64,000 bases of DNA from Fictibacillus terranigra (GTDB taxonomy: Bacteria > Bacillota > Bacilli > Bacillales > Fictibacillaceae). Location: positions 372,001 to 436,000 of the forward strand of contig NZ_JAUHLN010000002.1 of assembly GCF_030412265.1 (NCBI RefSeq), in the 5' to 3' direction. The position numbers and the translations under genes are program-made. Positions 38,337-64,000 of the stretch are shown piece after piece. The notes below the pieces were generated by a model. That model saw nothing but the letters and a program-made list of their open reading frames with translations. It had not been told where the DNA came from and searched no databases. Positions within the stretch are counted from its first letter, which is position 1. Every line of letters starts with the position of its first letter.

Positions 38337-39096
38337 CAATCACGCCCGGCTCGTGGGACGTACTGTTGAATAAGCCGATCTTGTTTAAGCAATGTATCGG
38401 ATAAAATAAAAATGAAGTTAGTGTAAAACACAAAAACAATCACCCCGGTATCAGGGGTTTTGAATCTTAATTGTTCACGTTCCCAAGGATGAACTAGTGT
38501 GCGGAACATATCCTGTATTCACAAGTTCTGTCGAACGATTAAGAAATTCCTTATTAATAAGGATTTACTTTATCATTCATTGATTATAAGGGATAAAGCA
38601 GTCAAGAAGATGACCCACCACTTTCCCAGTGGTTGTTATAGTGAAGTGCTTATATGAGGGACAGCATGGAAAAACAAAATAGAAAGATCTTAAAATAGGT
38701 AACGGGGAGCCATCCCTCTACCTATTGTTTTCGAAAGTTTTCCCCAACATTCTGGCCCTTTAATGAAAATAAGCGCTAGTCCTTGTTGCAGGAAAGCGCC
38801 CGATCGGAAGGATTGTAGAATAAGACCCTATAAAGTAACATCCCCATTATGTTTCAAGCAATGAAAATGCTAAAAGCACTGCGATTTGCAGTGCTTTTTT
38901 TATTGCTAATTAATATGCTATTGCTGTTGTTTTTTTACTTTTTGTACTCCAAAAGAGAATCCGTTACCTAGATGCCCCCCATCTTTTTTGAAACGATTGT
39001 TGATAATATAACCCTTAACCAGGTACCCAGGTATGTATTCTTTAGGGTTAGATAAAAATAGAAAATATCAAATCCTTACAGATATTGGAGGAAAAT
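38337..39096. other. non-coding region with a glnA 3'-end remnant
   Basis: About 760 bases. Minus strand 38460-38515 reads MFRTLVHPWEREQ, a degraded copy of the glutamine synthetase C-terminus (see repeats). A plus-strand terminator (AAAGCACTGC..GCAGTGCTTT, 38872-38902) has no gene before it. The rest shows nothing convincing. Confidence 0.55.
38430..38515 (-). repeat. glnA 3'-end copy A (degenerate)
   Basis: Minus strand reads MFRTLVHPWEREQ, then diverges into a terminator-like ACCCCTGATACCGGGGTG. It is the oldest-looking of four copies of this unit (others at 39.8, 47.2 and 58.8 kb). Confidence 0.7.
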
Positions 39097-42994: not shown

Positions 42995-43195
42995 CTAGTC
43001 TTTGTAATTCCGTGTCATATTCTTATACCAGTCACCATCAGGATAAACAACTGCCGCTGGACCATCTTGGCATCGGCCATTACATAGTGTCAGTGTGGTA
43101 TGAATTTCGTTTGTTAACCCCAGCCCTTTTGATTCACTTCTAATCGCTTTCGTGGTTTCTTCAGCCCCGTTGCATAATAATACTTGTTTAGTCAC
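42995..43195 (-). CDS. short thioredoxin-like [2Fe-2S] ferredoxin
   Basis: 66 residues. MTKQVLLCNGAEETTKAIRS and LTLCNGRCQDGPAAVVYPDG match (2Fe-2S) ferredoxin-domain proteins. The usual CxGxxC segment near the N-terminus appears shortened, and the C-terminus ends early, so only three cysteines remain; cluster binding is doubtful. It starts at a GTG that overlaps the previous stop and is thus coupled to the copper operon. It may be decaying. Confidence 0.6.
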   Translation of the reverse strand: MTKQVLLCNGAEETTKAIRSESKGLGLTNEIHTTLTLCNGRCQDGPAAVVYPDGDWYKNMTRNYKD

Positions 43196-44037
43196 ACCTG
43201 ACCGTGAATGTTTTCCTTCACTTCAATAACAAAAGGATATACATTGACCTTGCCATTGAATTTAAATTCCGCCCAGATTTTATACACGCCTGGTTGATCA
43301 AATTGGGTCTCAAATTTTGTTTCCTTCTCTGAAACAGGATGTACATGAACGTATTTATCTCCTTTTTCATCTAAGATGACCACATGGCCAAGCGCCCCTA
43401 AATAAGGTTGTGGGGTGCCTTTATTAAACGAGAAGCTCAATGTGACGGGTTCTTTTGCTTTAAACGTGTCTGGTGTCATGGTGACCGTATGATCGCCTAT
43501 TGTTTTCGCAAAGGTTGTTTCTGGTTTTAAGGTTGCATCTTTATCATGCGCATGATTCGTTCCTACTTCTATCGGTAATGGCTTCACCATGTATTCTTTA
43601 TTTTTCGGTTTAATGTCGATAAACGCTTTGTAAGTACCGTCCGACAGTTTCTTCGCCACCTGGAATTGCCCTTTTCCTATTTTCTCTGGATGCAAATGGT
43701 AATACTGTTTTAAATCCTCACTAACGATAATCAAATGCATGTTTTTCTCATGGTTCACTTCTAGTTGGTCAACGGGTTCCCCGACCTTATCTTTTAACTC
43801 AATACGCATCTTTCCATCTGCATGAACAATCATAGGGTCTACTTCACTTTCTGTTTGCATCCCATCGTTATGTTCTTCATGGCTTCCATGTTCACCCGGT
43901 TCTTTTGAAGAATTGTGTTCGGTATGATTGTCTGTTGGATTACCAGCTAATGATGCGTAAACAGAATATCCTCCGATCACTAGTGCAAGGATGATAACAG
44001 CCGATAATGCCCAACGTATGACGAAATTATTTTGCAC
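43192..44037 (-). CDS. membrane-anchored His-rich protein of the copper operon (FixH/YtkA-like domains)
   Basis: 281 residues. One N-terminal membrane segment (WALSAVIILALVIGGYSVYA) is followed by a His/Glu-rich linker (about residues 36-60, possible metal ligands) and two beta-sandwich-like domains with HLIIVSEDLKQYYHLHPE and YLGALGHVVILDEKGDKYVH. The paired His motifs suggest extracellular copper handling; this is inferred from content and operon position. The start is GTG with AAGGGGG 9 bases upstream. copA ends 15 bases before it. Confidence 0.75.
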   Translation of the reverse strand: MQNNFVIRWALSAVIILALVIGGYSVYASLAGNPTDNHTEHNSSKEPGEHGSHEEHNDGMQTESEVDPMIVHADGKMRIELKDKVGEPVDQLEVNHEKNMHLIIVSEDLKQYYHLHPEKIGKGQFQVAKKLSDGTYKAFIDIKPKNKEYMVKPLPIEVGTNHAHDKDATLKPETTFAKTIGDHTVTMTPDTFKAKEPVTLSFSFNKGTPQPYLGALGHVVILDEKGDKYVHVHPVSEKETKFETQFDQPGVYKIWAEFKFNGKVNVYPFVIEVKENIHGQV

Positions 44038-44052
44038 TGCTGAAAGCCCCCT

Positions 44053-46473
44053 TTACAATTTCACTTTTTGTAATCTTAATGCGTTTAGTACAACCGAAAC
44101 GGAGCTAAAGGCCATCGCTGCTCCCGCAAGCCATGGTGCTAAAAATCCAAGAGCTGCAACAGGTATACCCAACACGTTGTAGCCAAACGCCCAGAACAGA
44201 TTTTGTTTGATGTTTCGAATCGTTTTCTTACTCATATAAATGGCATCCGCTATACTGTTCAGATCGCCCCTTATTAACGTGACATCGGCAGCTTCCATCG
44301 CCACATCGGTCCCGGTTCCGATGGCCATTCCGATATCTGCAAGGGCAAGAGCCGGCGCATCATTAATGCCGTCTCCTACCATAGCCACCGTTTTGCCTTG
44401 TTGCTGCAGCTTTTTCACTTCTTCCGCTTTTCCTTCCGGTAAAATTTCAGCAATGACATGGTGTATTCCCACCTCTTGTGCAATAGCGTCCGCTGTCTGT
44501 TGATTGTCACCAGTAATCATGATGACCTTGAGACCCATACTCTTCAAACGAGAAACAGCTCGCTGAGAAGTATCTTTGATGGTATCAGCTACAGCGATAA
44601 TCCCCGCATAGTTGTTTTCAATTGCAATCATCATCGCCGTTTTTCCATTCCGCTCGAGTTCTTCCATGGCCGTATCTGCGTCGTGAATGGTGATGTTGTT
44701 TTCTTTCATCAATTTACGTGTACCGATGAATATCTTTTTATCGTCAACAACAGCTTGAATGCCATATCCTGGGATCGCATCGAATTCACTGGATGAAGGC
44801 AGTTGTATTCCTTTCTCCTGAATTCCTTGTACGATGGCTTGAGCCAGAGGATGTTCTGAATTTTTCTCTGCAGCACCCACTAATTTTAGGACTTCTTCTT
44901 CTGTAAACGGCTGCATTAGGATAACATCGGTTAATTCTGGTGTCCCATTGGTCACGGTTCCTGTTTTATCTAATATGATCGTATCAATCCTGTGAGTTGT
45001 TTCTAAATGTTCCCCGCCCTTAAACAATATCCCATATTCGGCCGAACGACCTGATCCGGCCATTATGGATGTTGGCGTAGCTAAACCCAAGGCACAAGGA
45101 CAAGCAATAACGAGTACGGCTATAAGTTTTTCAAGAGCTGCAGCAAAATCCCCTGGGCTTACCCATAGGTACCAAATCAAGAAAGTTAAAACAGCAATTC
45201 CCACCACGATGGGTACGAAAACCCCTGAGATCTTATCCGCTAAGCGTTGAATCGGCGCTTTTGACCCCTGAGCCTCTTCTACCACCTTGATAATTTGGGC
45301 CAATGCTGTATCGCGGCCCACTTTGATAGCTTTGATTTTTAAGAAACCGTTCTTATTGATAGTGGCCCCATTCACGGAATCTCCCACCGTTTTATCGATC
45401 GGTACACTTTCACCTGTGAGCATTGATTCATCCAAAGCTGAACGTCCCTCAATAATTTCACCATCCACAGGAACTTTTTCGCCGGGTTTGATATAAACCA
45501 CATCACCCACTTCTACTTCTTCAATGGGAATTTCTTTTTCTTCCCCGTTTCGAACGACAATCGCTGTTTTAGCCTGTAAACCCATTAACTTTTTGATGGC
45601 TTCAGACGATCGTCCTTTTGCTTTTGCTTCAAAGAGCTTTCCGAGTAAAATTAGCGTGATTAACACAGCAGAAGTTTCAAAATAGAGCTCAACCATTACT
45701 CCATTGGAACCCATTGAGAGAACGGAGAGATACAGACTATAAAAATAGGCGGCTGAAGTGCCTAATGCTACAAGCACATCCATATTGGCACTTTTATTTC
45801 TTAACGCTTTATACGCTCCAATATAAAATTGTTTACCGACAACAAATTGTACAGGAGTTGCCAGTGCCAGCTGGACCCATGGATTCATAAACATCTCAGG
45901 CATGTAGATAAAGGATGTAAATTCAAAGTGAGAGACCATCGCCCAAAGTAAAGGGATCGATAATATAAGAGAGAATATGAACTTCCCTTTTTGTTTTTCA
46001 ATCTCTAGTGCACGATGATCCCCTTGTTCCTGATCATTTTCCTTTTTAAGGCTTGCATCGTAACCTAAATTTTGAACCTTTTTCACCATGTCAGCAATCG
46101 ACACTTCACCCGGATTGTATTCAACCGCTGCGGTTTCCAAAGCTAAATTCACATTCGCTCTGTTTACACCGGGAAGCTTATTTAATCCTTTCTCGATTCG
46201 GGTGGAGCATGCTGCGCACGTCATTCCAGAGATATTAAATTCTGTTTTCTCTGAGACCGTCCCGTAACCTAAATCCTCTATCTTTTTTTGCAAGTCGGAT
46301 ACTGTAATAACCGTTGGATCATAAGAGACGGTCGATTTTTCTAGTGCAAGATTCACATTAGCTTGGTTAACACCCTCTAGTTTATTCAACCCTTTTTCAA
46401 TACGAATCGCACAAGCAGCACAGGTCATACCCGTGATTTGCAAGTTGGTTTCTTTTGATTTTGCAGATTCCAT
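44053..46473 (-). CDS. copA: copper-exporting P-type ATPase CopA
   Basis: 806 residues. Two N-terminal metal-binding domains each have GMTCAAC. Then eight membrane segments with the CPC motif ([15 protein letters not shown]), the phosphorylation site DKTGT and the hinge [10 protein letters not shown]. It pumps Cu(I) out of the cytosol and receives it from CopZ. The ATG at 46473 has TAGGAGGTAAAGGA upstream; the frame is open to 46539. A CsoR-type palindrome lies just upstream (46487-46507). Confidence 0.96.
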
Positions 46474-46486
46474 TCCTTTACCTCCT

Positions 46487-46507
46487 ATATACCTATATAG
46501 GGTATAT
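46487..46507. promoter_or_regulatory. putative CsoR operator before copA
   Basis: The palindrome ATATACC TATATAG GGTATAT lies between copZ and copA. It resembles CsoR sites (TACC..GGTA type). Confidence 0.6.
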
Positions 46508-46550
46508 TTAGATTCAAAAGATAGCGTGCTAAACAGCACGCAAGTTTATC

Positions 46551-46757
46551 TTAGGCCACATCGTATCCTTGGTCATCGATTGTTTCTTTAATTTTTTCTA
46601 AGGAAACTTTATTTGAATCGAACGTAACATCTACTTTTCCTTCGCTTAAGTTAACCTTTACTTCGGTTACACCAGCCAGTTTACCCACGTTTCCTTCAAT
46701 AGCATTCACACAATGATTGCAAGACATCCCTTTAACCTTCAACGTTTTCTTTTCCAT
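46551..46757 (-). CDS. copZ: copper chaperone CopZ
   Basis: 68 residues, one ferredoxin-like HMA fold with the copper motif GMSCNHC. It carries Cu(I) to CopA. It is the second gene of csoR-copZ-copA, with 19 bp after csoR. Confidence 0.95.
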   Translation of the reverse strand: MEKKTLKVKGMSCNHCVNAIEGNVGKLAGVTEVKVNLSEGKVDVTFDSNKVSLEKIKETIDDQGYDVA

Positions 46758-46776
46758 TTTATTTACCTCACTTTTC

Positions 46777-47106
46777 TTATTTCATTAATTTTTTAACCGT
46801 GACAAGAAACTCATCCAGCACTGCATCATCGCCTTCTTGAATTCGCTCTAACACACAACTTTTCAGATGACCTTCTAGCAATATTTTTCCGACACTATTT
46901 AGCGCAGATTGTATAGCAGATAATTGAGTAAGTACGTCATCACAATAGGTGTCACGCTCAATTAACCCTTTTACGCCGCGAATCTGTCCTTCAATACGAT
47001 TTAAGCGTGTTGTTAAATTATTTTTTACTTTATCAGAATGATGACTTTTACGTTCTTCATGGGCACAACAGCTTTCTTCTAGTTCTTCTGAAGTGTTAAG
47101 TTCCAT
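46777..47106 (-). CDS. csoR: copper-sensing repressor CsoR
   Basis: 109 residues. The Cu(I) ligands Cys-His-Cys are present (DTYCDDVL and LLEGHLKSCV), and RLNRIEGQIRGVKGLIE is the DNA-binding helix region. CsoR leaves its operator when it binds Cu(I) and so induces the operon. The N-terminus has extra Cys and His (EESCCAHEERKSHH). AAGGAGGTGACACCCC precedes the ATG. Confidence 0.93.
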   Translation of the reverse strand: MELNTSEELEESCCAHEERKSHHSDKVKNNLTTRLNRIEGQIRGVKGLIERDTYCDDVLTQLSAIQSALNSVGKILLEGHLKSCVLERIQEGDDAVLDEFLVTVKKLMK

Positions 47107-47208: not shown

Positions 47209-47316
47209 AAAACAAAAACCCCTTAACACCAATGGTGTCAAGGGGTTTTTTTAGTCTTAATACATGGACATATATTGTTCACGTTCCCAAGGGTGAACTT
47301 GTGTGCGGAACATATA
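47209..47316 (-). repeat. glnA 3'-end copy B (probable attachment site)
   Basis: Minus strand encodes MFRTQVHPWEREQYMSMY then stop: the C-terminus of glutamine synthetase. Its terminator follows (CCCCTTGACACCATTGGTG..GGGG). Positions 47209-47248 are identical to 58760-58799 of copy C. Confidence 0.85.
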
Positions 47317-47859
47317 CTGCGTGTCTTTCTATGCTTGATGATGACTAAAACCCGCATGAAATCAACACTATTGCAAAGTAAGCACATATTTAAATACATT
47401 AAAGTTGAAGCTCAGGTGGTCAAAAAGTGGTCAGTTTGGTGGTCAATTTTTCATCCTTTAACTGAACCATTCCACCACTTTCATATAATACAGCTCCTTT
47501 TCAACAGAGAAATAGTGCATAGTAGTATATTTTTGACCCAATAATCATGTTTCACAGAACCTGAAACCAATATTTTTACCATCTCTTCTCTCAATAGAAA
47601 TTCTCCATAATTAATGCCTCCATTTGTTGCGAGTAAAATAATAGGTAAATAGGAAGCTAATCAATATAAACGGAAAGATAAAGAATCCTAGAGTAGCCTA
47701 TATGTTTTCACTAATTGAAATTCTTCAGTAACCTTGTTTTCATTTACCACATAAACATAAACCAAATGCTCAATCTCAGTGTAATCATCGTAACGAATGG
47801 CTTGCAAAATGTCTGCTGGTGAATTTGTCACAATAATAAACCTTACAGCATCGTTGGCC

Positions 47860-47935
47860 AATACGATGAATCCGACCCATCCGTTGTTCCAGCCGATTTG
47901 GATTCCAAGGAATATCTTAATTAATCATTTGGTTG
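47860..47935 (-). pseudogene. SNF2-type helicase remnant
   Basis: Minus strand reads QMIN[16 protein letters not shown] then [10 protein letters not shown], the motif V-VI region of SNF2-family helicases with a TAA where Tyr is usual. Neighbouring frames are broken. The rest of the gene is gone. Confidence 0.7.
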
Positions 47936-48577
47936 CAAATAGATCATCTATGTCTATGTTGCGATTCACCGCTGTTTAAACGGGAGAAGATATCGTGATC
48001 GACTTAGCTAAAAACATTGAATGTTCCTTTCCTTGCCAAATTATGATGAAACACAAAATTTTTGTATTCGGTATCAGCACTATTGCCTTTTGTTTCAACG
48101 TCAGCAATCAACGCTAGTACATTTTCGGATTTTAATCACTTTCTCATCCTGTACAAACCAATAGTACTTGATATACCTGACATTAAAAAAGACACCCGCT
48201 AAGGAATCCTTATGTATTCATTCATTTGGATCACATCAGTTATTTAAGAAGAGTAAAAGATAAATAACAAAGAAATTTTTACTTTGGAATGTCTAATAAC
48301 GATTCCAATTCCCAAGCATAACACAGTAAAAAGAGCAAAGCCTACACCTTGTAATTTCCCTATTTACTTGCTGCCCCCTTTTTTTCTCTAAGTAAATATC
48401 CGCCCGTAAAACGGGAAACTCCTCCAGCTGCCAAAGAGGAAGAAGGGAAGAAAAAAGGTTGTTAACATCGCTTTAAAAGCGATTTATCAAGTATTTGCTT
48501 GTTTAATCCTCCCTACACTCAAAACAGGAGATGTTTACATTTTTATGGTTAATGAAAACAGCTCCTGTTGGTTGTTC

Positions 48578-56603: not shown

Positions 56604-56839
56604 ACAGGAGAAAGAGTGCATGTTAATGATTAGTGGAAAACAGGTTTTTTGGCCTGCTTGTTTTCAAAATAATGCGAATAATAAAGGAAGAAACCAGATT
56701 AATGGTCGCTATCTTTAGAAAAGACAAAACTAAAACGATATTCTATTTGAAATTGCTATATCTACAAATGAAATATTATATGTGCATACACATAAAAAAA
56801 ATTAAAACCATTTTAATTGAAGAAACCAATCTAGAAAGA

Positions 56840-57056
56840 ATGACAACGGTGGATTCTACAGCTGAGGAACTTTCTGATAAATATGGCCTGAAAGATGCAC
56901 CTACAGAAAATATACCCGAAGATGTTACAGGTATTAAATTTGATTCAGAAGAAGAACTTGCAATTTTCCTAGAGAACGTCTACCCAACAACTTCAACAAA
57001 TTCAGCAACTTGCTCAACAGTGTGCACAACAGCTTCAACAACAACACAATTTTTAA
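56840..57056 (+). pseudogene. possible frameshifted small gene with a Gln-rich tail
   Basis: MTTVDSTAEELSDKYGLKDA then ..TGIKFDSEEELAIFLENV is acidic and open from 56840. A one-base shift after about 56980 continues as TQQLQQIQQLAQQCAQQLQQ and stops 11 bases before a terminator. The unshifted frame instead reads through the terminator, which argues for a lesion. No family recognised and no ribosome site seen. Confidence 0.4.
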
Positions 57057-57066
57057 TCTTCAGATT

Positions 57067-57098
57067 AAACCACACGTTAAGGTGTGGTTTTTTTTGGA
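57067..57098 (+). terminator. terminator after the Gln-rich frame
   Basis: AAACCACA CGTTA AGGTGTGGTTT hairpin followed by eight T. Confidence 0.85.
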
Positions 57099-57127
57099 AA
57101 TAAGAAGAAGTGTTCCCAAAAATGATG

Positions 57128-58430: not shown

Positions 58431-58688
58431 ATGCCAAAATCGAGTTTATTTAATTCCTTTTCACGTATATTGAAGAGAGCGAGTATTGATCCCCTCCCTA
58501 TTCACTCAACGAGACATACACACGCCTTCCTCTTACTGGAAGCCGGAGCAGATATGAAATACGTACAGGAACGATTAGGCCATGGTAGTATTCAGGTTAC
58601 TTCAGTTGTATATGCACATATATCTAAGAAAATCGAACAAGACACTATGGGTAAGTTCGAGGATCACATGAAACGTGTTCTCGAATAA
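58431..58688 (+). pseudogene. tyrosine recombinase (integrase) C-terminal fragment
   Basis: 85 codons with the catalytic HxxR (PIHSTRHTHAFLLLEAGAD), the LGH motif (VQERLGHGSIQVTS) and the tyrosine nucleophile (VVYAHIS). The N-terminal part, including the first catalytic Arg, is lost where the IS66 remnant abuts. It ends 71 bases before glnA copy C, the normal place for an integrase beside its attachment site. Confidence 0.8.
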
Positions 58689-58702: not shown

Positions 58703-58760
58703 TTGTGGGTGTTTTGTGGATGAAGATCTTTATCAAGGTATGAATTAAATTTCACCCACA
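58703..58760. repeat. inverted repeat between the integrase end and the attachment core
   Basis: TGTGGGTG (about 58704-58711) and CACCCACA (58753-58760) are inverted around the integrase-to-core gap. It could be a binding site or a weak terminator. Confidence 0.5.
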
Positions 58761-58862
58761 AAACAAAAACCCCTTAACACCAATGGTGTCAAGGGGTTTG
58801 GCTTTTAATACATGCTCATGTATTGTTCACGTTCCCAAGGATGAACTTGTGTACGGAACATA
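58760..58862 (-). repeat. glnA 3'-end copy C (probable attachment site)
   Basis: Minus strand again encodes MFRTQVHPWEREQYMSMY then stop, followed by the terminator. It shares 40 identical bases with copy B; silent third-position differences lie in the coding part. Confidence 0.85.
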
Positions 58863-59114
58863 TCCCTCCCCTTTTTTTATTTCAAAATATGTAAAAAATG
58901 CTGTTATATCAGCTTTTTTAATTTATTGCTTTTCAAGATATTTATTATCATTTTAAATTATTTTGGTCCAATTTTGGTCGGAATTTTGGTCCAACTTAAC
59001 TAAGGGATCAGATCTATAAATTATTTTTCTTGTTGATCCTTCACAATTGCACCCTTTTGTTGAATAAGAATGGGGTTGTTATCACAATCACCTTTATGTA
59101 CATTACTTTTCAAA
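58863..59114. other. non-coding stretch with GGTC repeats
   Basis: AT-rich, with TTTTGGTCC-type repeats at about 58965-58996 (TTTTGGTCCAATTTTGGTCG, then GAATTTTGGTCC). No gene seen. Confidence 0.5.
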
Positions 59115-59742: not shown

Positions 59743-59877
59743 TCATATGACGCTGTAAGCTTTGTGAATCACTAGCTCTAGATTTTCGAGTCTATTTTGA
59801 TATTGCTTCTTTTCTCCGATTTGCCTTTCCCCGTCCATTAACTCGTGTCTTTTTTGAAGATATTCCACATACTCCAT
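59743..59877 (-). CDS. small charged coiled-coil peptide, third gene of the right-end operon
   Basis: 44 residues, MEYVEYLQKRHELMDGERQI then GEKKQYQNRLENLELVIHKA.., one amphipathic helix. GGGGAG precedes the ATG, and it starts 24 bases after the PLD-type gene, so it is probably co-transcribed. No family recognised. If it is real it could be a partner or regulator of the two large proteins upstream. Confidence 0.5.
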   Translation of the reverse strand: MEYVEYLQKRHELMDGERQIGEKKQYQNRLENLELVIHKAYSVI

Positions 59878-59901
59878 TTCAATGTTCTCCCCAACGCATG
59901 T

Positions 59902-62544
59902 TTATTTCGTTCTAAACCCTTCGCAAATGATGCTTGTATCTCCTCTTTCAGCTGCTGAGATCAGCTGGTGTTTATAAACATTATTTTTCTGCTCGATGTA
60001 TGGTTCGCGGTCCCGTTGTTTATACACATATTTCCTCTTTAACACTCGTTTTTTCTGATTGTAATAGAGAACAAATCGCTGAACCGGCATTTCGGGATTC
60101 ACATTGAACCAACGAATTTTAAAAGCTGAGGTCTCCTCCCACTCCTCTACTGCAAGCATTTCCGCTAATATATTTAGTTGTTTATGGTGAAATTCAGGTG
60201 TAAGTTTAACTTCTCTTTCAAGGCAAAGATCTGGTTCATCCACCAATGGAATTTTCTTGACCGTGATATCCATACTTCTAATTTTACTAACAAGCTGTTC
60301 AAAACTAAGTAATGGAAACATTTTATGAAAGGATTGCTCGTACGCTTCTTTATCCATATCTATTCCAAACTTTCGTTGCAGTAAAAGGCTGATTTGTATC
60401 GAGTAATTGTGAATATTCTTACCAATCGGATGAATTTGTTTATGTATATTCTTTAATAACTGCCCTAATTTCTTCTTTTCGTTTCTTAGAATATGGTAGT
60501 TATCCTCTGTCTTTTCGAGTATATATCCTTCGGCAGCAATGGTCCCTAAAGTGTGGATAAGCAGCATTTGCATGTCTTCTCTCGACATATCTAATATATT
60601 GTTTTGGCTATAATGTTCGAGCGCTTTTACCACTTCAAAACATTCCAATACCAGCTCGTTTTTTGTGAGAAAGTGTTCCCCTAACTTCTGCTCTAACAGA
60701 TTTAAAAATCCCAGGTAGATCGTCATATTTTTAATCATGATGTCAGGTTCAATGTTTTCTAAGTAACGTTCAGAGTTTATTCCCTTATTGTATTTGGTCA
60801 TAAAGTTCTTCATGCGTTTTTGGAGCTTTTCGCGTAAATCTTTTGGTATATCTACAGTCTGTAGTTTTTCAAGGTTAGAATCAAACTTCTCACTTGTACT
60901 TTTAATCGTTTCAGCTGATTCTTCGTAAAAGCCTTTTAACAATATCCGGATCAAATTTCCGATTACATCTACATTTCCAATTGAACCATAAGCAACGTCG
61001 GTTTCTTCTAATGTATAGTAATCATCTGGATTGCTGCTGACGTATTCCTCAACTTGACTTAATTCTGCCTGTGCATGAATAGACTTCATTCGGGTGTTTG
61101 TTTGTTCAGTTTCGTCTATATCCCGCTCTGTTAATATCAAACGATTCTGCAAGTCATCCAAAAGCGCGACAATATTATGATAGTCTTCTAAATAGGGGTC
61201 ATTAGGCAGTTGAAAATGAACAGATTTCTTCATATTATGAAACGTGTTTTGTAAAGAAACCGTATCGTGATACCAGCCCATAAAAGAGATAGATCGTTCT
61301 TTCGTATATCCTATTAATGAAAGAACTGGACTTAACGGCTCAGTTTTCGTATTAAAGACATAGGTAAATACATTCCCATTTGTTTCAGCTAAAACACCTT
61401 CTATTGAGTCCTCCAATAAAATGGACTTCAGCAAAAGATCTGTTTTTAACGTAATAAACAGCTGCTGATCTCGCAGGATTCCATCAATAAAATAAATTCG
61501 GAATGGTTCTTTTTCTATTTCTCCCTGTACATCCTCTTCTATTGTTCGAAAATCCTCTGGCAAGGGGATTGGAAGAGGGGTAAGTGTTATGCACTTCTCA
61601 AAAATATGATCAAACTCTCCCTTTTCACCTACCTCAACCACAATTGCCTCTGAGTTTCCGTCAAATTGGGAATTTAACAAGAAAGCTTGTCGGCTGCAGT
61701 TTCCGCTGCCGTAGATAATCACTTCCGTACTCTCTCCTATAAAACGGAACACTTTTCCATGGTATCGCTTATGAGATTCCTCTAAAAAATCAGCCTGATA
61801 CAGTGAAATATTGGATTCAAGAAGCAGATGACGTGGAAAATTCGTGTGTTTATTCTGCAAATAAATTTTGATTTGTTCTGGCTGATATCTTTCGTTCCAC
61901 TCCTTAATCAGGGATAAGGATTGATCAAAATAAGGAACAAAACATTCAATTTCTTTAATCCCGTTTGGAATAAATTGATTTAATTGTTCCTGCATCGATT
62001 GTTCTTGATTGGTGAGTAGAGAACTTTCTCGAGCCGTATCTTGCATTAGGTATGAAAATTCCTTTGTTTTTGAAAATAATTCTTGCCACATCTTGTTGTT
62101 ATGTTCTTTGTTGAATGATTGAAACAATTGAAAAGCTGCTTGAATTTCAGCAAGGTATTCATATTCTCTTCCAACTGTATCGATAGTAAACCTATTAAAA
62201 ACTTCATGATTCGTAATGAAGCCAGCAGGTGTTAAATTGCCGCTCCCAATGAGTACTTTTGCTTTATGCTCACCCAATAGCAAATACACTTTTGGATGAA
62301 AGGCATGGTTCGTTTCCATACCTTTTATGATGTAGCTTTTCCCTAATTCTGAAATATTCGGTTTCGTAATCGACTCAAATAGACACTTTTGATCAACGAA
62401 TAAGCCTAAGTATGTACAGTTTTGCTCAATGAAATGACGGAGAATCATTTTTTCAAAGAATAAGAGGTCGGTAGAATAAGATGTAACTAATGCCACTTTA
62501 TATCCTGGCTCCTTTAACTCCTCTATTAAATCAATTCTTTTCAT
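59902..62544 (-). CDS. phospholipase D/HKD-fold protein, probable defence nuclease
   Basis: 880 residues. Two half-sites of the PLD superfamily are visible: HPKVYLLLGEHKAKVLIGSGN-like near residues 80-102 (written here as HPKVYLL..GSGN) and YHGKVFRF..YGSGN at about 262-284. In both, the HxK and the later GSxN are kept, while the Asp of classical HKD is absent, as in some restriction-type nucleases. The rest (about 330-880) is helical without known motifs. GGGAGGG precedes the ATG at 62544, which overlaps the previous gene by 14 bases. No helicase is fused. Confidence 0.7.
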   Translation of the reverse strand: MKRIDLIEELKEPGYKVALVTSYSTDLLFFEKMILRHFIEQNCTYLGLFVDQKCLFESITKPNISELGKSYIIKGMETNHAFHPKVYLLLGEHKAKVLIGSGNLTPAGFITNHEVFNRFTIDTVGREYEYLAEIQAAFQLFQSFNKEHNNKMWQELFSKTKEFSYLMQDTARESSLLTNQEQSMQEQLNQFIPNGIKEIECFVPYFDQSLSLIKEWNERYQPEQIKIYLQNKHTNFPRHLLLESNISLYQADFLEESHKRYHGKVFRFIGESTEVIIYGSGNCSRQAFLLNSQFDGNSEAIVVEVGEKGEFDHIFEKCITLTPLPIPLPEDFRTIEEDVQGEIEKEPFRIYFIDGILRDQQLFITLKTDLLLKSILLEDSIEGVLAETNGNVFTYVFNTKTEPLSPVLSLIGYTKERSISFMGWYHDTVSLQNTFHNMKKSVHFQLPNDPYLEDYHNIVALLDDLQNRLILTERDIDETEQTNTRMKSIHAQAELSQVEEYVSSNPDDYYTLEETDVAYGSIGNVDVIGNLIRILLKGFYEESAETIKSTSEKFDSNLEKLQTVDIPKDLREKLQKRMKNFMTKYNKGINSERYLENIEPDIMIKNMTIYLGFLNLLEQKLGEHFLTKNELVLECFEVVKALEHYSQNNILDMSREDMQMLLIHTLGTIAAEGYILEKTEDNYHILRNEKKKLGQLLKNIHKQIHPIGKNIHNYSIQISLLLQRKFGIDMDKEAYEQSFHKMFPLLSFEQLVSKIRSMDITVKKIPLVDEPDLCLEREVKLTPEFHHKQLNILAEMLAVEEWEETSAFKIRWFNVNPEMPVQRFVLYYNQKKRVLKRKYVYKQRDREPYIEQKNNVYKHQLISAAERGDTSIICEGFRTK

Positions 62545-64000
62545 CAAGCTTCACCCTCCCTGCCGCTGTGACTTGATATACTCCTTTTTCTGCCTCAACC
62601 ATTCCTAAATCGACTAATATGGATAACCCTTGCATGACTCGAAAAACATTAAATGAAGGCTGATCATCACTAAGAAAATATAGCTTGCCATCATTTTCCA
62701 CGAAATGATAGGTTTCATTTCCGGTGGTAATCATCTTATTTAAAGCAACCTTCTGATGCTGCTCCAAAATATAAAAGCGTAATATATAGCTAAGGAATTC
62801 TTTTAAAGGTTTATCCCGATAAGATTGAACAAAGTCCATCCATATTGTAAAGGAAATGTCGTCTCTTCCTCCTAGCTTTAACAGCTCCTGGTGAGAAGTG
62901 TCAAAATCATCTCGATTTAGGAGACGATTGTATACATACAACATCATAAGCATAGGCTGCCATATATGATTCTCTGCATTAATTTCTTTTTTTCTCAGTT
63001 TTCCAAAAGTGGCTTTCCTGAAATCCTGATTCAAAGGGATGGATTCGTTTAAACTTTTTATATCCTCTGAAAGATCATGTCTATTGTTCTCTAGCTCTTC
63101 TACAACAGCAGCAATTAATTCACTCATCGAAACAACTTTTTTAGACATTTGATGAAGCAAATACGACCACATCGTATCCAGGCTATAGGTGAAAAGTTGG
63201 CGTACTTGATAAATTTCCCAACCTTTTGCCACATTTTGAAGATGACTAGGAACCGTAGTCTGGTTGTCATACAATCCATCTAACATCATGTCCTGCAAAT
63301 AAGAGAATGTGATCTTACTCCCCCTCGATTGATGAATAATATGCATATAGTACAGCAAAGATTGCTTACGCAGTATTTGCCTGGAGTTTCGAGGTTCTTC
63401 AGGCATAAATATATTTGAAACAATCGGATAGTCTTTTGAATTAGGATCTTTTAACCGGTCAAGTGCAGCCACTCTTCCAAAATCAAGCAATACTCCTCTT
63501 GGTACAGGAGTATCTTCTAGCCGATTATCACGATAATAGGCAGTATGCTTAATCGTCTGTTCAAAAGCTTCAGCAAGCATTTTACCAACTGGTGTCAGAC
63601 GATCAATATGTACACCTTTAGCCTCCTCCCCTATCTTCGTTATCCCTAGGATCTTCATAACATTCCGGTATGTACCGTAGCCACCAAAGCTGTCTTGTAC
63701 ATAATTTGATTTCTGCTCAAAGGCATCTTGTGGTTTTCTCCATTCTTCTATAGCTTTTTGTATACCGATTACATCATGAGTAATGGCACCCCGCTCAAGA
63801 GCTTCCGCATAATTAGCTAAAATAAAATACCATTCTTGTTTTTTTAAAAAGCTCTTAAAGTTTTTTATGGTTTTTTCTTCGGGTACATTTTGAATAAAAT
63901 CGTATAACACCCAAGCAAAAAAAGACCAGTACCTTGCCCTAGGAGTGATACTTGTAACCCCTGATTGAAGGTAATCTGCAATCAAAATACCCACATTCCG
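62531..64000 (-). CDS. DUF6361-like protein, N-terminus beyond the window
   Basis: 489 codons are visible and the frame is open to the right edge; the GTG at 63994 is probably internal. SITPRARYWSFFAWVLYDFI near the N-terminus is similar to the T-R-A-R-Y motif of DUF6361-type proteins, which occur in defence clusters. The middle is helical. The C-terminus (VFRVMQGLSILVDLGMVEAE..) looks like a winged helix. It overlaps the PLD gene, so the two products probably act together. Confidence 0.6.
   Translation of the reverse strand, partial: RNVGILIADYLQSGVTSITPRARYWSFFAWVLYDFIQNVPEEKTIKNFKSFLKKQEWYFILANYAEALERGAITHDVIGIQKAIEEWRKPQDAFEQKSNYVQDSFGGYGTYRNVMKILGITKIGEEAKGVHIDRLTPVGKMLAEAFEQTIKHTAYYRDNRLEDTPVPRGVLLDFGRVAALDRLKDPNSKDYPIVSNIFMPEEPRNSRQILRKQSLLYYMHIIHQSRGSKITFSYLQDMMLDGLYDNQTTVPSHLQNVAKGWEIYQVRQLFTYSLDTMWSYLLHQMSKKVVSMSELIAAVVEELENNRHDLSEDIKSLNESIPLNQDFRKATFGKLRKKEINAENHIWQPMLMMLYVYNRLLNRDDFDTSHQELLKLGGRDDISFTIWMDFVQSYRDKPLKEFLSYILRFYILEQHQKVALNKMITTGNETYHFVENDGKLYFLSDDQPSFNVFRVMQGLSILVDLGMVEAEKGVYQVTAAGRVKLDEKN

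Follow-up and report, generated by a model that had tools for sequence, protein, structure and literature searches.

The window analysed here is a stretch of 64,000 nucleotides from the 4.97-Mb genome of Fictibacillus terranigra (C9:372001-436000). At its right end it carries two overlapping genes on the minus strand, referred to here as A and B, which form a conserved two-gene module and probably represent an undescribed small immune system. Gene A codes for a ZacA-like protein of 517 amino acids, probably involved in DNA binding or recognition. It occupies positions 62531..64000 (-) and continues to C9:436084, which places its 5' end, an ATG preceded by AAGGAG, 84 bases past the window edge. 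Gene B (59902..62544, -) codes for a probable nuclease of 880 amino acids; a TTG start would give 59902-62547, and the next codon is an ATG at 62544, which was adopted for the numbering. Counted from this ATG, the end of A and the start of B overlap by 14 bases (62531..62544, -), an arrangement suggestive of translational coupling. An open reading frame (ORF) of 44 amino acids starts 24 bases after B (59743..59877, -), and plausible ribosome-binding sites are present for A, B and this small ORF alike.

An earlier note on this DNA, made from the sequence alone, had described these three ORFs with the same overlap and spacing, and this was confirmed. It had also counted the 44-residue peptide as a part of the system and had allowed for further operon genes beyond the window edge, and neither suggestion held. 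The peptide gave only chance-level matches in the homologous loci searched, the closest relative included, and is therefore not regarded as a third component. Upstream of A there is approximately 0.67 kb without a listed gene and then a gene on the plus strand, so that the window edge cut off no operon component.

The gene pair in other genomes

A and B are conserved together as a module of two genes. We aligned 39 A-B loci, namely the window, 16 plasmids, 16 genomes and 6 viral contigs, which yielded alignments of 39 A proteins and 40 B proteins. The hosts include Bacillota, Bacteroidota, Pseudomonadota, Actinomycetota and haloarchaea among others, and thus represent at least five phyla including archaea. 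The gene order is A-B in 36 of the 39 loci and B-A in the other three; this reversed order belongs to a divergent form found in alphaproteobacteria (L026, L027 and L053). Overlaps of 4-23 bases were observed in 33 of the 34 other A-B pairs with an intact B, the remaining pair being separated by 20 bases. It should be noted that the start codons in unannotated loci were taken as the nearest start to the profile match, which means that single overlap lengths could shift. The loci share no third gene; the only clusters among the neighbours were those of restriction genes, of helicases and of integrases, and small sets confined to a lineage.

Using tblastn against 72,556 plasmid records, B had matches in 20 and A in 9, with B adjacent in all nine. 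Sixteen of the 20 records were fetched (all except H4, H5, H10 and H19), and the A profile identified an A gene beside B in each of the 16. In 13 of the 20 matched records the PLD (phospholipase D) gene, the counterpart of B, was annotated only as 'hypothetical protein'. The 22 genome loci returned comprised 15 with A-B order, one with B-A order, L048, L055 and four shorter PLD proteins without A. In one of the A-B genome loci (L051) B is broken into two frames, and L048 is cut at a contig edge, where its first bases look by eye like the tail of an A gene. Among the viral contigs, six of seven loci contained A-B. Short PLD proteins without A (L010, L034, L054, L056, L057 and L058), the fragments in G032 described below (L009 and L011) and a locus with contig-edge pieces of both genes (L036) were left out of the alignments; for L051 only A was aligned, and for L048 and L055 B was aligned without A.

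The pairwise identities of A and of B correlate strongly, and the A and B trees have several well-supported clades in common, although support for their deep branches is weak and long-branch warnings apply there. One clade recovered in each tree unites the window pair with that of Halobacillus karajensis, whose A shares 53% and whose B shares 45% identity with the window protein. As judged by reading ORFs, the Halobacillus pair is located near a tyrosine integrase downstream of groEL.

Among 398 genomes of the phylum, the own genome included, B as a query matched only itself, and the A profile found one further genome (G468), with pieces of A and B at a contig edge. None of six congeners had a match to A. 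A genome of the same family (G032) contains two fragments related to B (G032:C3:48464-48919 and G032:C22:1264-1401, 56% and 46% identical), the source of L009 and L011, and no match to A; we regard these fragments as a broken or split copy.

The two proteins and their relation to known systems

B consists of an N-terminal double PLD domain (approximately residues 1-330) and 550 C-terminal residues of unknown fold, which are poorly conserved. The first PLD half-site comprises H83, K85, N103, T105, N112 and E114 (62203..62298, -), where the H, the K, N103, the T and the E are invariant in all 40 aligned B proteins and N112 is present in 97%. The second comprises H262, K264, G279, S280, N282, N297 and E299 (61648..61761, -), all invariant in the 40 proteins except N282, which is found in 97%. 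Both half-sites therefore retain H, K, N and E in every B protein, and the Asp of the HKD motif is absent. This agrees with the two HxK...GSxN half-sites lacking this Asp that the earlier note had described, to which an invariant glutamate in each half can now be added. The PLDc_2 match of B (33.8 bits) exceeds the gathering score of 27, which places B in the PLD superfamily, and a match to RE_NgoFVII (19.4 bits) lies below the gathering score of 23.8. The sequence neighbours of B are ZacB, DrmC, Tdp1 and 7clg, and hydropathy analysis revealed no transmembrane-like stretch (best 19-residue mean 1.18). As judged from these sequence features, B is probably a nuclease. A comparison of the two families showed that A and B are not homologous.

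Conserved residues occur throughout A, including the N-terminal residues G22-D24-L26 and a TxRxRY motif. In the window this motif reads TPRARY, as noted earlier; its second R (R51) is invariant in all 39 aligned A proteins, and T47 is present in 90%. The DUF6361-like label that had been attached to A proved to be a weak lead: A scores 11.4 bits against a gathering score of 25, and only one of the 39 A proteins matches DUF6361 at an E-value of 0.001. ZacA, a protein of the Azaca system, fits better, with a weak match of 21.2 bits over 83 of 396 positions, and 12 of the 39 A proteins match it at 0.001. A is probably a helical protein with a winged helix at its end. The structure model considered was that of the 53%-identical Halobacillus homologue, and a Foldseek search with this model gave no match at an E-value of 0.001. 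Sequence searches of solved structures with A returned short weak matches only, and when the A profile was used, neither N.BspD6I nor the FokI recognition part was among the matches. With these type IIS-related enzymes, whose winged-helix arrangement A may share, the root-mean-square deviation is 5.9; they belong to a different nuclease class. Altogether, A is probably a DNA-binding or recognition protein.

The nearest known relative of the pair is Azaca. A PLD-like domain is described for Azaca, a system credited to Millman et al. 2022 (PMC10952713). The helicase of the system is ZacC (PMC12278908), and a survey of Pseudomonas islands lists Azaca in one hotspot (PMC12629846). No mechanism for Azaca was found in the titles and passages covered. 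Like Azaca, the window pair has a ZacB-related protein of the PLD type, encoded in tandem with a possibly ZacA-related one, and a defence context elsewhere. B matches ZacB (PDLC03829) with an E-value of 1.1e-9 and 35.8 bits, most strongly over positions 294-391 of 586; the similarity concerns the PLD part, and all 40 B proteins match ZacB at 0.001. However, these ZacB positions correspond to residues 80-175 of B, which indicates a different architecture, and the second PLD half-site and the long C-terminal part of B lie outside the match. Moreover, unlike Azaca, the window pair has no adjoining ZacC helicase: the four ZacC matches in the own genome are all in helicases elsewhere or in a decayed fragment 12 kb from the pair.

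ZacC matches of at most 47 bits were obtained in six of 12 genomes with homologous pairs, the one in the genome of L051 having no assigned position relative to the pair. In L045, a helicase approximately 4 kb from the pair scores 34 bits with ZacC and 650 bits with DrmD. The only locus in which the PLD gene is followed directly by a ZacC-like helicase was L055 (L055:557-6127), from a delta proteobacterium bin, where a B-like PLD gene overlaps a helicase frame of 1205 codons that scores 77 bits with ZacC. A solved-structure search with the PLD protein of L055 gave unrelated weak matches only. We regard L055 as an Azaca-like locus at the edge of the B family that bridges the two families and is the nearest Azaca comparator. 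A search for ZacA in 348 genomes of the class returned no match, and the positive control gave none either. Since ZacC is absent, membership of the window pair in Azaca was rejected; because it has a ZacB match and a weak ZacA match and no ZacC, we refer to it as a helicase-free relative of Azaca.

Other known systems were considered as well. PDC-M27, a phage defence candidate of PADLOC, has a component, PDC-M27B, that is matched by 34 of the 40 B proteins, whereas PDC-M27A is matched by none of the 39 A proteins at 0.001. PDC-M27A was also found in none of 14 pair-bearing genomes or records, a search that lay outside the own genome and in which no positive control matched. Membership in PDC-M27 was rejected because the PDC-M27A partner was not found. 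Similarity to DISARM consists of a weak DrmC match of the window's B (20.6 bits) and of one DrmC model that matches 21 of the 40 B proteins. A DrmD-type helicase is located near two homologous pairs (L021 and L045). No DISARM core was seen around the window pair, and on reading none of the neighbouring ORFs was taken for a helicase or methylase. Likewise, no deazapurine synthesis genes or helicases of the Dpd type were seen among the ORFs around the pair, which were read without a family search. With these partners not seen around the pair, membership in DISARM and Dpd was rejected, and the doubt expressed about both in the earlier note was rightly held.

A further comparison concerns the restriction nucleases of the BfiI, SauUSI and NgoAVII type, which, as described in PMC7913695, have PLD domains with HxK motifs and cut DNA at a paired HxK centre; the SauUSI motif is given there as H(X)K(X)4E, without the HKD Asp. 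B resembles them in having a PLD domain with HxK motifs. BfiI and SauUSI pair two protomers, whereas B has both half-sites in a single chain, and SauUSI and NgoAVII have an ATPase, which B lacks. No paper on DUF6361 or on PDC-M27 was found. The pair is not described in the titles and abstract openings on Azaca genes or two-gene PLD defence among the matches listed; large prediction screens may include it. PLD enzymes are mentioned in a preprint on the YprA helicase (PMC12458937) and in a survey of BREX (PMC12839542), in passages that do not mention the pair.

Defence neighbourhood and possible function

The earlier note had named two observations that would speak against an undescribed defence system, namely the pair being part of a known system and a lack of association with defence regions elsewhere. 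Neither was observed: no partner gene is common to the loci, and a recognisable defence gene is present in the fetched flanks of 13 of the 39. Restriction genes near the pair are of type I in L012, L013, L016, L039, L042 and L044 (by annotation and clustering, with profiles for four) and of type III in L028 and, with a weak match, in L051. DrmD is present in L021 and L045 and LmuB in L050, and L052 has a helicase resembling DpdF/GajB. L020 contains a set resembling that of Zorya, with proteins annotated as OmpA, EH signature and SNF2 and with ZorD matches not assigned protein by protein. Of 19 neighbours scanned one at a time, which had been picked for size or position and not at random, 11 gave a match to a PADLOC model and eight gave none. 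Taken together, 115 neighbours matched 361 PADLOC families as compared to 7 matched by 90 control proteins; these counts refer to families and not to proteins, and the larger one is inflated by cross-matching helicase models. The neighbours were those within two genes of the pair in 38 of the 39 loci (L024 was dropped as a near copy of L019). For the controls, one region was considered in each of 13 pair-bearing genomes, that of the window among them, and 12 of these regions supplied proteins; nine of the 13 regions are near contig starts, three are very short, and they were not matched for length or mobility.

Proteins of the GIY-YIG type were also seen near the pair. Those of L016 and L021 are annotated as such, that of L045 clusters with the L016 protein, and those of L039, L040 and L049 were recognised by reading. 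Such a nuclease-like gene, recurring in unrelated hosts, is a possible optional partner.

On balance, we favour the view that the pair is a defence module of two genes carried by mobile elements, a relative of Azaca working without a helicase, in which A would recognise and B would cut, and which presumably acts against phages. This view draws on the co-inheritance and overlap of the two genes, the complete half-sites of B, the probable winged helix of A, the mobility indicated by plasmids, an integrative element and viral contigs, and the defence neighbours elsewhere. On these grounds the proposal of a candidate undescribed defence system stands, except that its nearest relative, Azaca, had been missed. 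That the pair is a defence module of some kind is a safer claim than a DNA-recognition role of A. The main gap in the defence argument is that no recognised defence neighbour is present in the window's own segment.

Mechanistically, the two half-sites of B may form one active site. Cleavage of nucleic acid by B would then need no ATP and would pass through a phosphohistidine intermediate, as it does in the PLD nuclease BfiI. A would recognise invading DNA or an intermediate of infection and recruit or unleash B, and the 550 C-terminal residues of B could keep B inactive or join it to A. The two proteins would thus act like a split restriction nuclease with neither methylase nor helicase. A bolder proposal, which we put forward only tentatively, is that the pair defines a new class of restriction-like immunity: a split DNA nuclease that needs neither ATP nor a methylase. 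In it, A with its winged helix would detect foreign DNA or an intermediate of replication and thereby license the single-chain double-PLD nuclease B. Plasmids and integrative elements would have spread the pair among bacteria and haloarchaea, and Azaca, with its helicase, would be either derived from it or its sister. If the pair is indeed defensive, it would be a compact system of two genes that lacks an ATPase and occurs in at least five phyla, archaea among them, the ZacA/ZacB-like core could work without a helicase, and the division of labour within Azaca would become directly testable.

The overlapping, co-varying genes on mobile elements would also suit an abortive-infection or toxin-antitoxin-like pair, with B as a toxic nuclease that A silences until infection and the winged helix of A serving in autoregulation. 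We consider this unlikely, as the conserved residues spread over the whole of A, G22-D24-L26 and TxRxRY among them, go beyond the apparent needs of an antitoxin, and the usual toxin-antitoxin partners are much smaller than A and B. The 16 plasmid regions, the integrative element in Halobacillus and the viral contigs, together with the lack of any match of B in 50,697 phage records, could instead point to mobile elements in conflict with one another, for example through plasmid exclusion or maintenance, and not to phage defence. The classical anti-phage systems among the neighbours in other genomes make such a role rather improbable, it being understood that the two views overlap.

An action of B on membrane lipids, in the manner of membrane-damaging PLD effectors, might be considered since PLDc_2 is a broad family that includes lipid enzymes. 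With ZacB, DrmC, Tdp1 and 7clg as its sequence neighbours and no transmembrane-like stretch, B is very unlikely to act in this way. Finally, the similarity to ZacA and ZacB and the decayed helicase fragment 12 kb away (47854-47937) might be taken to mean that the pair is an Azaca system in decay, the helicase having been lost in this strain. We give this idea hardly any credence: 39 loci across phyla keep A-B without a shared third gene, both ORFs are intact in the window, and the fragment lies in another island segment, between the copies of the glnA tail at 47.2 and 58.8 kb.

The glnA insertion region

An integration region at glnA had been proposed earlier, and the repeated glnA tails and integrase remnants confirm it. 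Copies of the glnA 3' end are present at 38470-38513, 47209-47315 and 58756..58866 (-), the last forming the left boundary of the segment that contains the pair. Its right boundary, outside the window, is glnA itself (about C9:448241-448347, ending at 76.29 kb in window coordinates). The C-terminal remnant of a tyrosine integrase (approximately 75 residues; 58464..58685, +) lies beside the left boundary, and another integrase C-terminal remnant is located near the right boundary at about 76.0 kb (C9:447953-448171). The repeated 3' ends mark tandem insertions at one site. As six of seven genomes of the genus, the own genome included, have extra glnA tails, glnA is a repeated insertion site and a hotspot for islands within the genus. 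The pair's segment measures approximately 17.4 kb and has a G+C content of 36.4%, whereas glnA has 44.9% and the left 30 kb of the window 44.2%. An element inserted at the intact glnA site would, as the newest, come to lie beside glnA, and it is therefore plausible that this segment is the most recently gained part.

Several other features of the island were noted. The decayed helicase fragment (47854-47937, -), a C-terminal piece with a weak ZacC match, belongs to the neighbouring segment. An ORF at 56633-57103 (+) ends in a Thr/Ser/Cys-rich stretch (TTSTNSATCSTVCTTASTTT) that by eye looks like the core of a lanthipeptide precursor. As judged by reading ORFs, copper P-type ATPase-like, small metal-binding and repressor-like genes occupy one stretch of the island (43192-47106, -), and a multicopper-oxidase-like gene (L002:11679-13208, +) is located in the same segment as the pair.

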